Shown: positions 34,576 through 61,072 of the stretch, piece by piece | Layout: the number at the start of each line of letters is the position of its first letter | How positions within the stretch are numbered: the stretch's first letter is position 1 | Source of the DNA: Methanolobus chelungpuianus | GTDB lineage: Archaea > Halobacteriota > Methanosarcinia > Methanosarcinales > Methanosarcinaceae | DNA length: 64,000 nucleotides | Assembly: GCF_024500045.1 (NCBI RefSeq) | Contig: NZ_JTEO01000002.1 | Span: 558,001 to 622,000, forward strand | Reading direction: 5' to 3' | Notes under the pieces: generated by a model | The model's input: only the letters and a program-made list of their open reading frames with translations | Told to the model about the DNA's origin: nothing | Databases searched by the model: none | Made by a program: the position numbers and the translations under genes

Positions 34576-35946
34576 TCAGATACCGGTCAGGTTGCCGGAT
34601 ACGGAGGAATTGCCTTCTGAGGTGTTATTGAAGGAGCTGTTCACGGACTCGTTCTCTGGATTCTCGTCATCCTCATCCATGTCAGACTCTTCGGAACCCT
34701 CATCAGATTCTTCCTCTTCATCATTTTCATCGTCATACTTTGCCCACTCTTTGGTGATACTTTCGAGCTCATAGGAGCCATCACCAGAGAGGACTGCTGT
34801 GCCTTCTCCGTCAACCGAGAGGGACATATCCTCTGAGCGGATCATCACTGTAAGGCGGCTGCCTTCAATAGTGACTGTTCCTGTAAGGTTGTGGAAGACA
34901 AATGCCCTGTTATTACTTTCACTGTTACCTGCATCTATGTTAGATAATGCGTAGGATGCATTGCCTGTGTTGATAACTGCATCTCCGGCCATATCCTTTA
35001 CCACGAGCTTTGCATCAGTTGCATTGAATTCCAGTGTAAGGTTGCCTGAAAGTACTGCAGTACCATTACCTTCAGCTGTAAGGGTGTTGTTCCCGGTAAG
35101 CACCACCAGTCCCTCACGGTGCTGCCTGAGGCCCTTGAGCATATCTTTCAGGAGGGCGTTTGCTTCTTTTATCTTCTGCCCTGCCATGTTCATGTTCCTG
35201 ATAAGCTCGGCCTTTTCATCTGCATCAGTAGCATTTGCTGCCTGCAGCTGGTATACTTTTGCCTCCGCGATCAGTGATCTGTATTCCTCAAGCATTGACC
35301 TGAGTTCCGCTACATTCTCACCGTTGCCTTCCAGGCGTGCAATCTCATTTTCAAGACGTAGTGCCATGTTTTCGGATGTCCTTATGACAGCACTCAGTTT
35401 ATTATCTGCAGATTTTGACGCGGATGCTGTTTTCTGCCTGTTTGCATCCTTCCAGATATCCCTTATGTCCCTGGCGCACTCCGCAAGTTCCTTCCTTGTA
35501 TCTGCTGCAGCCACATCCTCTTTTATCAGTTCCAGCTGTGTTATGTATTCCTCATCTTCAAGGGAAACGATCATATAATCTATGGTGCTGTTCAGGTAAT
35601 CCTTTGTGGCCTCAATAGCTTCTTCCGAATCAAGGTTCTTGTCATTGTTCTTCATTTTCACGAAGTTGTCCCTTGCATCAAGGTAACCTGCCTTCACATT
35701 ATTGTTCCCTTTAGCCCTGTTCATCAGGGTCGTATTATTCAGATCCTGAGTCGTGTTATTCAGGCCCTCTGCCTGTTTGCGCAGGGCATTCCCGTTAGCA
35801 TTGATCATGTCGCGGTCCCTGTCCTTGATCTGGAGTCCTGCCTTCTGTGCGTTGTCCGACGCAGCAAGAGCTCCTGTGGAAAGGATACTTGCCACCATAA
35901 GTACTATTGCAAGATATGTAAATAATTTAATTCCCATTTTTCTCAT
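34576..35946 (-). CDS. Secreted acidic protein with helical and beta-repeat regions
   Basis: A 456-residue exported protein of unknown function. A signal peptide (IKLFTYLAIVLMVASILSTGALA) is followed by a long, charged, probably coiled-coil helical region to about residue 280. Short beta segments repeat GNGTAVLSGNLTLEF and GEGTAVLSGDGSYEL. A tail of Asp/Glu/Ser and Asn-rich residues carries several N-x-S/T sites. The ATG at 35946 has GAGAGGG upstream and fits the signal peptide better than the ATG 27 bases earlier. Its 5' region holds a long inverted repeat (35998-36091). It is divergent from a membrane-tethered regulator. Confidence 0.75.
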   Translation of the reverse strand: MRKMGIKLFTYLAIVLMVASILSTGALAASDNAQKAGLQIKDRDRDMINANGNALRKQAEGLNNTTQDLNNTTLMNRAKGNNNVKAGYLDARDNFVKMKNNDKNLDSEEAIEATKDYLNSTIDYMIVSLEDEEYITQLELIKEDVAAADTRKELAECARDIRDIWKDANRQKTASASKSADNKLSAVIRTSENMALRLENEIARLEGNGENVAELRSMLEEYRSLIAEAKVYQLQAANATDADEKAELIRNMNMAGQKIKEANALLKDMLKGLRQHREGLVVLTGNNTLTAEGNGTAVLSGNLTLEFNATDAKLVVKDMAGDAVINTGNASYALSNIDAGNSESNNRAFVFHNLTGTVTIEGSRLTVMIRSEDMSLSVDGEGTAVLSGDGSYELESITKEWAKYDDENDEEEESDEGSEESDMDEDDENPENESVNSSFNNTSEGNSSVSGNLTGI

Positions 35947-36332
35947 GTGTTCCCTCTCGTTGGCGTTTTTCATGGAATTTCAGTAATCAGAACTGCTGGA
36001 TTCTTAGAATCTGAAGAATTCCCGTCAAGCAGGTACCTATGTACCAAGTTCCACCCAATATCTGCTTGCAGCTTACAGATTCTAAGAATCCGAGTTTTGA
36101 TCTGTCCGTTTTTGCCTTTGTTCTCAACGTTTTTTACAGGACATTGTGCTTAACTTACTGTCTCTGCACTTGCGCCTGCAATTTACTGATTGTCAGGCGA
36201 GCATATAAGCATACTTTACTTTACGTAATCTTTACTGAACTTTTTCATCAGATCTAAGCCCAATTATGGCTCCTTTTACTTGATGAAACTTTATATTTCT
36301 TCAGTTATCTTTTAGAAGAAAATATTATATGC
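35947..36332. promoter_or_regulatory. Divergent regulatory region with a large inverted repeat
   Basis: A perfect 16-base inverted repeat lies at 35998-36013 and 36076-36091, with an inner pairing AAGCAG (36027-36032)/CTGCTT (36062-36067). Each arm contains its own palindrome (GATTCT-T-AGAATC, or its complement), with centres 79 bases apart. A second hairpin lies at 36173-36199 (CGCCTG-CAAT/ATTG-CAGGCG with one bulge). A minus-strand TATA-like GCTTATATG (near 36201-36210) and a plus-strand ACTTTATATTTC (near 36286-36297) may serve the two divergent genes. Confidence 0.5.
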
Positions 36333-37184
36333 ATGTACTTAATAAATACACAGTTTGTGTCAACCCGAAAAACCCCGTGCATTTTAACTTTATTTATTCT
36401 CCTCCTGGCAAGCATCCATTTTGCTGCCGCTGCAGACATGGCAACTGTCCATGGTGTTATATATGAATGGGGCACCTTTGAACCTCTGGAGAATGTCATC
36501 GTGGAGGTCAATTCCACACCACCCCAGTCCATGCTTGCACGATATGGACTCTATTCATTCAATCTGTTACCGGGAGACTATGCTGTATCTGCGAGCTATT
36601 ATCGCAATAGCACGCTCATACGCTATACGCAGGAAGAGATAACAATAACCGGTTCAGGCGATTATGTCATTGACCTGATCCTTCTCCCTGCATATTATGA
36701 TGAAGGTCTGAATGAAGCCGAGTTCACCGAGCTCGATGAACTTGCCGACCTTGCAGAAGATGAAAGCAGTAACTCATTCTCATACGGCACTCTGTCCCTC
36801 CTGATACTGACAGCCCTGGCATTTGCTGCGGGTACATACCTGCTGTCAGTACGACGTAAGGCCAGTCCTGTACTGGCTGAAGATGATATCAGTCCTGCTG
36901 ATGAGACAATCCCTGATATTAATGCCGGATATACTGGCCTGCCTGATGACCTGCGGGAAATGGTAAGCGTAATCTCCCGTAACGGTGGCCGCATTACCCA
37001 GAAGGATCTCAGAGGGGCCCTGAAACATTCGGAAGCAAAGGTCAGCCTGATGATATCCGACCTTGAGGACCGCGGGGTTGTACGGAAATTCAAAAAAGGC
37101 AGGGGAAATGTCGTATTCCTGGTACATCCCGAAGAGAATGGTGCTGAGCGTATTCAGCCTGAAGGGACAAACCAAAATATATAA
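36333..37184 (+). CDS. Membrane-tethered winged-helix regulator with extracellular beta domain
   Basis: A 283-residue protein with three parts. An N-terminal signal or anchor helix (CILTLFILLLASIHFAAA) leads to an outside beta-sandwich resembling carboxypeptidase-regulatory or Cna-B domains (VHGVIYEWGTFEPLENVIVE... SFNLLPGDYAVSASYY). One membrane helix follows at about 151-168. The cytosolic C-terminus (about 205-275) is a MarR-like winged helix (ISRNGGRITQKDLRGAL; KVSLMISDLEDRGVVRKFKKG). It is probably a one-component system passing an envelope signal straight to DNA. Divergent from the secreted acidic protein. Confidence 0.85.
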   Translation: MYLINTQFVSTRKTPCILTLFILLLASIHFAAAADMATVHGVIYEWGTFEPLENVIVEVNSTPPQSMLARYGLYSFNLLPGDYAVSASYYRNSTLIRYTQEEITITGSGDYVIDLILLPAYYDEGLNEAEFTELDELADLAEDESSNSFSYGTLSLLILTALAFAAGTYLLSVRRKASPVLAEDDISPADETIPDINAGYTGLPDDLREMVSVISRNGGRITQKDLRGALKHSEAKVSLMISDLEDRGVVRKFKKGRGNVVFLVHPEENGAERIQPEGTNQNI

Positions 37185-58462: not shown

Positions 58463-61072
58463 TCAGCTCCGCTTCCTCAGTATCCATACAGCTGCGATGA
58501 CCACTACAAGCAAGCCCATTGCAATGCCTGCTGCAGGTATGCCACGGCCCTCCTCTACTTCAAAAGTGCCATTGAGATTTCCTATGCTTGCATTATAAAT
58601 GCCTGCCTCATCCATGCTCACTGTGAAGTTAACGGTCTCTTCCTGTCCGGGATCCAGTATCACTTGTTCGGTTGCCATCACGTTCCCGTCGATGAGAAGC
58701 TGCACGTCCTCTTCCCCGGTCTCGGTACCTATGTTCCTTATACTTGCAGAGATCGTTACATCGTCTCCGGTCTCTGCAACAAGGGGCTCTATAGTAAGGT
58801 CAGAGTAGGAGTACCTGGCTTCCGGCCCCTGAACCTCTATGTTCAGTTCAGCTTCAAGGTACTGGTCTGAAGAAGTGCTTATCCTGTGCATGCCTGCATC
58901 CATTGCTGTGTGGTTGACCCTGCCCTCGGTACCTGTAGTACCCACCAGCCTGCCGTCATACAACACTTCCACGTCCCCTACAGGTCTTCCGTCTATCAGT
59001 GTCGTGACAGCTATGCTGATGTTGTCTCCCACGTTCACTTCAGAAGGTGATATATCTATAGCAAGCCTCCTGCTCAGGTCGTCGGGGGATATGACCTCAA
59101 CTTCGGTACTTCCGGGCGCGAATCCCTCTTTCTCTGCTGTAACAGTGAAGGTGCCTGCTTCTCCCGGAGTGAATGATATAGTCCCGTTGGCAGAGGTATT
59201 GCCCACTTCCGTGTTCCCGAACATCACTACTGCATTCTCCACTGCCGCTCCCCGTGAAGTGACCTCTATGCTCACGGACCTGTTCTGTGCGAGAGCCTTT
59301 GGAATGTTGATCTCGAGAGGATCGGCATCTTCTGCAGTTGTGACCGATACATATGGATAGAATCTCACAACACCGGAATCTGCAACCATGAACATCACGT
59401 TGTCCATGACCGATATACTGCTGTCTCTTGAAAGCGTAATGGAGCGATCGCTTGTCATGACTATCTCATCCGAGGAGACACTTGAGATCTCCATCCTTCC
59501 GAACCTCTCGCCGGATTCGATATCTATCACATTTTCAGATATCTGGAATATGCCTTCAACGAATACGGCGTTCGTTTCAGTGCCTCTGAATATCTCCCTG
59601 AAGTGTACGATTATTACGGGTATGCTGTCGGCGTCGCCAACATCTGCCTCATATACATAATCGCCTCCGGAGGAGATAACACCTGTATCGACCTCGCTGC
59701 CGTCCTTATCCAGCCTCACAAGCACCCTTGAACCGTCAAGATCGACCTCCTCGATCACCAGCCTGTATCCTTCGCCCAGCACAAGTGAGGAGCCGGTGTA
59801 AAGGGAGGCCCTGCTGTCACTATCTATAAGGACCCTGGAAAGCTGGCCGCCCGAGAGAAGGCTTTCGTTACCTGTGAAGCTGTTCTCCACATACCCTGCG
59901 AAGTACTTCTCTGCAAGGAAGCCGATCACACTGAAGCTTCCCCAGGGGCTGTATTCAAAGCTCACCTGCTGCGGCACGCTCCTGTAGACAAGATCCCCTG
60001 AACTGATAGTCCTGCCGTTGAGTTCGGTTATTTCCAGGGATTCGGTGCCTACTCCTTCGTCAATATTGTAGTAGAATCCTTCGAAGTTCAATGGTGTCCA
60101 TGTGTATGCCTCTCCTTCGACCACAGTCCCCCTGAGCTCATAGCTGCCGGGCTGTGATGTGTCCACTACAGGTCCGAATCTCAATATGCTGTCATCCGCA
60201 ACAACGAACTGCAGCTTCCCCATGACAGGTATGGTGTTTCCTCTTGTGAGGGATATGGAATTGGTGTTCTCCATGCTGATCTCGCCCTCACTGAACGAGC
60301 GGATCTCCATCCTTCCGAACCTGTCACCGGTCTCTATTTCCACATAGCTCTCGGATATCTGGAAGATACCCTGTATGAACACCGCATTGGTTTCCGTTCC
60401 CCGGAATATGTTGCTGAAATGGACAGCTATCAACGGGACATCCTGCTGCGTGCCCAGTTCAGCCTCGTAGACATAATCGCTGTTCCCGGAGATAATGGCA
60501 GTATCAACCACCTGTCCATCCTTCACCAGGTTAAGCAGCACACTGTCCCCGTTAAGGTCCACTTCCACAACGTTGAGCCTGTAACCTTCATTAAGGACTA
60601 TTGCAGAGCCGGCAAAAACAGACCTTCGTGTATCCTCATCCACAAGGACCCTTGTTAGCTGCCCGTTGGACATGAGGCTTACATCGTCATCCGCAAACTG
60701 TGAGTTATCGGTATAGCTGGCAAAATACCGCTCCGCCATGAACCCTATGACCTGGTAGGAACCCCAGTCGCTCCGATCGAAGCTGGTGTTGATGGGCGTG
60801 GTAGAGTATTCAAGCGCTCCGGCCGGTATGGTCCTGCCCGAGGAACTTTGCAGGCTGACTGTCAGTGTCTCCGATCCTTCGCCCGAGTCAAGGTCGAAGT
60901 AAAATCCTGAATAGCTCTGGGCCGTCCATGTATATTGCAGGGACAGGTTCTCATCTGCAGACCAGATGCGATTTCCCGTTGTATTGTTCTGAGCTGTGGC
61001 AGTTGCTGCCAGAAAGATTGCTGTTATTATCAATACACTTACCAGTAAAGATAGATTAATGTGTCTTCTCAT
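58463..61072 (-). CDS. S-layer protein with two duplication domains and C-terminal membrane anchor
   Basis: An 869-residue exported protein. A signal peptide (NLSLLVSVLIITAIFLAATATA) is followed by two related S-layer family domains (DUF1608), about 35-310 and 325-595; compare DWGSYQVIGFMAERYFASYT with PWGSFSVIGFLAEKYFAGYV. Then come Ig-like/CARDB beta domains (EVTSRGAAVENAVVMFGN; DLTIEPLVAETGDDVTISAS) and a final membrane helix with RKRS. Methanosarcinaceae S-layers use this duplicated domain; the added beta domains make it longer than the roughly 670-residue main S-layer protein. GGTCAGGGG precedes the ATG. Confidence 0.92.
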   Translation of the reverse strand: MRRHINLSLLVSVLIITAIFLAATATAQNNTTGNRIWSADENLSLQYTWTAQSYSGFYFDLDSGEGSETLTVSLQSSSGRTIPAGALEYSTTPINTSFDRSDWGSYQVIGFMAERYFASYTDNSQFADDDVSLMSNGQLTRVLVDEDTRRSVFAGSAIVLNEGYRLNVVEVDLNGDSVLLNLVKDGQVVDTAIISGNSDYVYEAELGTQQDVPLIAVHFSNIFRGTETNAVFIQGIFQISESYVEIETGDRFGRMEIRSFSEGEISMENTNSISLTRGNTIPVMGKLQFVVADDSILRFGPVVDTSQPGSYELRGTVVEGEAYTWTPLNFEGFYYNIDEGVGTESLEITELNGRTISSGDLVYRSVPQQVSFEYSPWGSFSVIGFLAEKYFAGYVENSFTGNESLLSGGQLSRVLIDSDSRASLYTGSSLVLGEGYRLVIEEVDLDGSRVLVRLDKDGSEVDTGVISSGGDYVYEADVGDADSIPVIIVHFREIFRGTETNAVFVEGIFQISENVIDIESGERFGRMEISSVSSDEIVMTSDRSITLSRDSSISVMDNVMFMVADSGVVRFYPYVSVTTAEDADPLEINIPKALAQNRSVSIEVTSRGAAVENAVVMFGNTEVGNTSANGTISFTPGEAGTFTVTAEKEGFAPGSTEVEVISPDDLSRRLAIDISPSEVNVGDNISIAVTTLIDGRPVGDVEVLYDGRLVGTTGTEGRVNHTAMDAGMHRISTSSDQYLEAELNIEVQGPEARYSYSDLTIEPLVAETGDDVTISASIRNIGTETGEEDVQLLIDGNVMATEQVILDPGQEETVNFTVSMDEAGIYNASIGNLNGTFEVEEGRGIPAAGIAMGLLVVVIAAVWILRKRS

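Follow-up and report, generated by a model that had tools for sequence, protein, structure and literature searches.

Long 5′ leaders with predicted RNA structure have been described in methanogenic archaea. The S-layer mRNAs of Methanosarcina carry leaders of 159 and 154 nt with predicted structures, and the sections of the 2012 report that deal with them called their role currently unknown (PMC3361143). For Methanolobus psychrophilus, the relevant part of a later study gives 51% of mRNAs as having 5′ UTRs over 50 nt and points to a previous study by its authors that credits long leaders with helping to stabilize mta transcripts at low temperature (PMC5378194). Further, 5′-to-3′ decay is present in archaea, as stated in the corresponding passage of PMC3792030.

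We analyzed a 64,000-nucleotide stretch of Methanolobus chelungpuianus DNA (hereafter the window), in which a secreted-protein gene and a winged-helix gene are divergent and a predicted hairpin lies between them (Table 1). Like slmA1 of Methanosarcina, as portrayed in those sections of PMC3361143, the locus combines a cell-surface protein gene, a long leader, an upstream TATA box, dyads, and predicted RNA structures, and the likeness extends to the Methanolobus box, which precedes S-layer-type genes in 2 genomes (G004 and G024). Unlike slmA1, the secreted protein here had no S-layer (PF07752) match in a profile scan, the big hairpin is found in 2 genomes only, and the leader is a predicted one. 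The M. psychrophilus leaders come from the same genus and are likewise long, with a stem-loop predicted in some, but the example given in that part of the study buries the ribosome-binding site, whereas the window's hairpin excludes it (PMC5378194). The neighboring protein shares a hydrophobic segment (seen by eye) and a winged-helix domain (DUF7343) with the archaeal transmembrane transcription regulators as outlined in PMC10269533, although nothing here ties it to the palindromes in the repeat.

Table 1. Features of the divergent intergenic region and its flanking genes (window coordinates)
Feature	Position	Strand	Remarks
Secreted-protein gene	34576..35946	-	Likely start 35946; listed open reading frame 34576-35973
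Shine-Dalgarno GAGAGGG	35952..35958	-	Sequence reading
Whole predicted leader hairpin	~35985..36102	-	Outer stem, 16-bp arms, and inner CAAGCAG/CTGCTTG stem
Hairpin 3′ arm (as transcribed)	35998..36013	-	GGATTCTTAGAATCTG; palindrome at 35999-36011 inside
Hairpin 5′ arm (as transcribed)	36076..36091	-	CAGATTCTAAGAATCC; palindrome at 36078-36090 inside
Ribosome-binding-site-like GAGAACAAAGGCAAAA	36110..36125	-	By eye; no start codon after it
Short 5′-terminal stem TTGCAGG/CCTGTAA	36134..36181	-	Begins at predicted start ~36182
Promoter box AAAGTAAAGTATGCTTATAT with TATA element	36203..36222	-	Points to secreted gene; genus-conserved
Conserved intergenic block TTTTACTTGATGAAACTTTAT	36274..36294	+	Multi-locus alignment
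Membrane-tethered winged-helix protein	36333..37184	+	PF24034 DUF7343, E 6.8e-17; hydrophobic segment by eye

Inverted repeat, predicted fold, and leader

On re-reading the sequence, we found the 2 arms to be perfect reverse complements over 16 bases, each with a 13-base palindrome inside, as the sequence-only reading had stated. Shuffling the window 100 times with dinucleotides preserved gave 0 perfect inverted repeats with 16-bp arms within 130 bp, against 1 observed, and 14-base arms occurred at a mean of 0.04. The palindrome, GATTCTNAGAATC, has 2 exact places only in the 2,598,553-base genome, both in this repeat. Odd palindromes of 13 bases are frequent in their own right (the window has 21, and 16.4 were expected), and with 2 mismatches allowed, GATTCTNAGAATC matched the window twice where 4.0 matches were expected. 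Since a palindromic arm forces a palindromic complement, the 2 palindromes represent one coincidence, not two.

Fold prediction carried the pairing past the 16-base arms, giving a hairpin larger than first described, with its outer and inner stems on one common axis. Minus-strand RNA of positions 35974-36110 had a minimum free energy of -49.0 kcal/mol (z -6.0), and 0 of 200 shuffles were as stable. Folding energy does not choose the strand because the plus-strand RNA of the same interval folds about equally well (-48.3 kcal/mol, z -6.3). With the arms fixed, better pairing of the window's outer flanks and loop than of shuffled ones was borderline on the minus strand (p = 0.056 and 0.068) and the plus strand (p = 0.048 and 0.050); for G023, a close relative and the other Methanolobus genome with the hairpin, the values were p = 0.006 and 0.002 on the minus strand and p = 0.078 and 0.002 on the plus strand. 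Rfam covariance models had 0 matches up to an E value of 1 over positions 35800-36500. A terminator was considered and rejected, as the minus strand has no U-run after the hairpin (by eye).

We conclude that the inverted repeat probably forms a lineage-specific hairpin in minus-strand RNA, within the 5′ leader of the secreted-protein mRNA. The earlier reading had offered a leader RNA hairpin and a pair of operators for the winged-helix protein as possible explanations, and we found the former better supported, given the position between a conserved box and the start codon, the co-axial stems, and the retention of pairing as G-U in G023, whereas the operator for that protein was left unsupported.

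In the secreted-protein gene, the listed start at 35973 has no ribosome-binding site, the ATG at 35946 is preceded by GAGAGGGA in the window and in G023 alike, and the first ATG in G023 is the counterpart of 35946; with the start placed there, the hairpin ends 39 nt 5′ of the likely start codon. The predicted leader is 232 nt long in the window, compared with 76 nt in G021 and G026, making it approximately 150 nt longer. Because GAGAACAAAGGCAAAA, upstream of the hairpin, resembles by eye the ribosome-binding site GAGAACAGAGGCAAAA of the secreted gene in G021 and G026, the translation start may have shifted downstream, beyond the hairpin, in the window's lineage. A separate idea, that the hairpin holds a remnant of a small secreted gene, arose from a 12-base match by eye (CCTGCkTGACGG) and was dropped, since aligning it locally with six small genes gave results that shuffled sequences could equal (p 0.13 to 0.96).

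We also rejected the idea that the hairpin masks the ribosome-binding site, as the site lies outside the hairpin and its predicted exposure is near-constant from 4 to 37 °C; the mean for the site and start was 0.58 to 0.61 across this range and 0.79 at 60 °C. When the leader was folded with the first codons, a local structure of its own was predicted to pair the start codon (unpaired probability 0.06-0.07), and coding bases paired with the 5′ end, which then did not form its own stem. Both predictions speak against the leader-hairpin reading, and we rest nothing on the pairing of the start codon. The same predictions bear on a temperature- or state-dependent RNA switch, in which the arms would fold locally before the long hairpin forms. 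Each palindromic arm alone can form a local fold of 5 to 6 bp (-3.7 and -2.4 kcal/mol), as such a switch would need, but the long hairpin greatly exceeds these folds in stability, and the ribosome-binding site and start are predicted to change little in exposure between 4 and 37 °C, so that we regard a switch as very improbable.

The hairpin in relatives and competing explanations

We compared 25 Methanolobus loci, our own included, each with a secreted-protein match beside a winged-helix gene; 2 of the 27 genus genomes (G018 and G020) yielded no locus in the protein search and stand outside this set. Apart from the window's own, G023 is the one locus of the 25 with the hairpin; its perfect arms are 14 bp long, and its winged-helix protein is 90% identical to the window's. 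A search of 185 genomes of the order found a match along the hairpin length only in our own genome and G023; the other 183 had no match along this length, and five of them had matches of 24-34 nt. Absence elsewhere rests on this 185-genome search, as some intergenic stretches are truncated by chance frames (for example, L016, L018, L019, and L024). A mobile repeat of the MITE or REP-like kind was rejected, with one full-length match each in our own genome and G023 and no further ones. At the locus, the exact palindrome is present in both copies in the window and one in G023, where the other copy lacks an edge base; elsewhere, 6 places in 5 other genus genomes have it, all away from this locus, and a reversed control pattern was found in 2 genus genomes. 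The hairpin is therefore young, its full-length match being confined to these 2 genomes and the palindrome being absent at the other loci.

The base pairs in which the window and G023 differ lean toward a minus-strand RNA, with counts too few for proof: on the minus strand, 6 were kept and 4 broken in the window structure and 7 kept and 2 broken in the G023 structure, and on the plus strand, 4 were kept and 4 broken and 3 kept and 3 broken, respectively. A two-base change in one arm of G023 retains pairing as G-U on minus-strand RNA. All retained changes are one-sided and none is two-sided, G023 being the single relative with the hairpin.

The repeat may instead lack any present function and be a fossil of template switching that made a local inverted copy. 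Its restriction to one lineage, the absence of further copies from 185 genomes except for short matches, and the longer leader relative to G021 and G026 all fit such an origin; the 14-bp perfect arms have nevertheless been kept in G023 despite an 11% difference between the 2 intergenic regions, and the inner stem there has 10 perfect pairs, which together make a functionless fossil rather unlikely in our judgment.

We consider it improbable, more so than a fossil, that the palindromes, 79 bp apart, serve as operators of a dimeric regulator, for example the neighboring winged-helix protein. Two dyads with a common core do lie near a divergent regulator gene, the palindrome is unique in the genome to this repeat, and the 11-base cores of both copies are retained in G023. 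Relatives of the regulator are present, however, in 56 of 60 related genomes, whereas among the loci compared the exact palindrome is confined to those of the window and G023, and one copy loses its edge base in the latter. Both palindromes sit on the downstream side of the secreted gene's predicted start, at a distance of >200 bp from the regulator gene, and by arithmetic, their center spacing of 79 bp amounts to approximately 7.5 helical turns, which does not favor binding on one face. Operators would also leave the co-axial outer and inner stems unexplained, and other intergenic blocks are far better conserved. The winged-helix protein had been named the obvious candidate to bind them, a view that our comparison does not bear out, as nothing appears to link it to the palindromes and its relatives lack them.

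Candidate sites for a regulator are better sought in those blocks. The conserved blocks in a 23-locus alignment (G014 and G015 were missed by the anchor pattern) were the promoter box, TTTTACTTGATnAnACTTTA (36274-36294), and a TATA-like element at the winged-helix gene, and on sequence grounds such blocks, including 36274-36294, appear to be better operator candidates than the palindromes. The listed winged-helix ATG (36333) is not ATG in most relatives, and in-frame stops follow its position closely in G013, G007, and G014. An in-frame GTG at 36357 lies approximately 30 nt from the center of the TATA-like element at 36323-36331; it may be the true start, compatible with leaderless translation. 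At G000:C2:108495-110261, a region beyond the window, a secreted-protein paralogue directly precedes a winged-helix paralogue on the same strand, and this pairing is repeated in other genus genomes, including G004, G005, and G019. The recurrence of paired paralogues suggests that the secreted protein and the membrane regulator are functionally linked.

Promoter box, 5′ stem, and surface-protein genes

The box pattern RAAGTAAAGNATGNTTATAT was identified 27 times, spread over 21 of the 27 Methanolobus genomes, with one to three copies per genome where present, and its reversed control gave 0 copies in all 27. Our own genome has one exact copy (36203-36222); with 2 mismatches allowed, two further weak matches appeared, against 5 for the reversed-pattern control. 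Variants outside the pattern occur at some loci, such as G021 and G026. Transcription in archaea is expected approximately 20-22 nt after such a box, and this spacing would place the start of the secreted gene at ~36182 on the minus strand, with the box at 36203-36222 presumably acting as its promoter.

At many loci, TTGCAGG-, TTGCAAGTGCAGG-, TTGCATATACAG- or similar sequences lie approximately 20-22 nt past the box, with a complement further on. A duplex test allowing bulges gave p < 0.05 in 18 of 24 leaders (own p = 0.133, G023 p = 0.020), and a stricter ungapped test gave p ≤ 0.05 in 16 of 32 (own p = 0.396, G023 p = 0.010), the p-values within each test not being independent, as the loci are related. 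The set of 32 consists of the 24 leaders plus 8 from other box copies; G014 was left out of the former, and its later-found box entered the latter as G014_b. In G023, an 8-bp stem occupies the place corresponding to the window's weak 5′ stem. In the 16 significant leaders, the stem spans 44-110 nt, and own pairs match at 98%, compared with 80% for swapped partners. An alignment of nine chosen leaders has 13 consensus pairs, two of which are changed on both sides. By eye, ACyACCAwG-like and GACAATGTCA-like motifs occur twice inside the 5′ stem-loop in most of G001, G005, G006, G009, G019, and G025; these repeated motifs could be a binding site.

Other box copies precede small secreted proteins in G014, G024, G022, G004, and G016 and S-layer-type proteins in G004 and G024, and a copy in G010 has no clear secreted frame after it. 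The S-layer assignment was checked by profile match for the G004 copy (PF07752, E 1.4e-132; TIGR01567, E 1.4e-95), and the call for G024 is based on likeness to that copy. Several of the small secreted proteins (L111, L115, L121, L123, and L124) are Cys- and Asp-rich by eye, with DGxCDN and RLRDGSC-like repeats; the two that were scanned, L111 and L121, had no Pfam match over the cut-off. The window itself encodes two S-layer duplication domains (TIGR01567) at 59348-60934 on the minus strand in one 879-aa open frame, and this S-layer gene (start ~61072, minus strand) has no box copy upstream by eye, unlike those of G004 and G024.

Some relatives have a small secreted gene ahead of the large secreted-protein gene, and in 8 of the 9 that could be compared, the interval between the two outperformed its shuffles in folding (p ≤ 0.05), the exception being G011 (p = 0.741); G014 was set aside because its second frame is an internal fragment, and G002, G019, and G025 have no testable frame pair. 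By eye, approximately 33 to 46 nt separate the end of the hairpin from the large gene in G010, G013, and G007, much as in the window; in others, the hairpin is further away.

Under the leader-hairpin reading, transcription would start near 36182, behind the box, and the transcript would open with the short stem at 36134-36181, followed by the large hairpin at 35985-36102, with translation starting from 35946 at a ribosome-binding site outside the hairpin. Provided that the hairpin folds in the cell, as the energy predictions would have it, it would block 5′-to-3′ nucleases upstream of the ribosome-binding site. By analogy with the structured S-layer leaders of Methanosarcina (as covered in PMC3361143), the long 5′ UTRs of M. 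psychrophilus (in the part of PMC5378194 on leaders), and archaeal 5′-to-3′ decay (the passage in PMC3792030), its role is likely to be the stabilization of an exported-protein mRNA or the marking of a processed end.

More tentatively, and with the balance somewhat against it, we propose that the hairpin was added, in this lineage, onto a hitherto undescribed Methanolobus leader RNA, defined by a highly specific box and by a start at, or a few bases from, a stem-loop that retains its pairing despite changes in sequence. Such a leader would mark a regulon of surface proteins, comprising this secreted protein, small cysteine-rich secreted proteins, and S-layer-type proteins, controlled at the box and leader. 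We found no report of this leader element in the open-licence literature searched. The hairpin itself is modest, and it is its setting, the box together with a variable stem, that makes it useful: a box followed by a stem that often keeps its pairing offers a testable handle on the expression of exported and S-layer-type proteins in methanogens.
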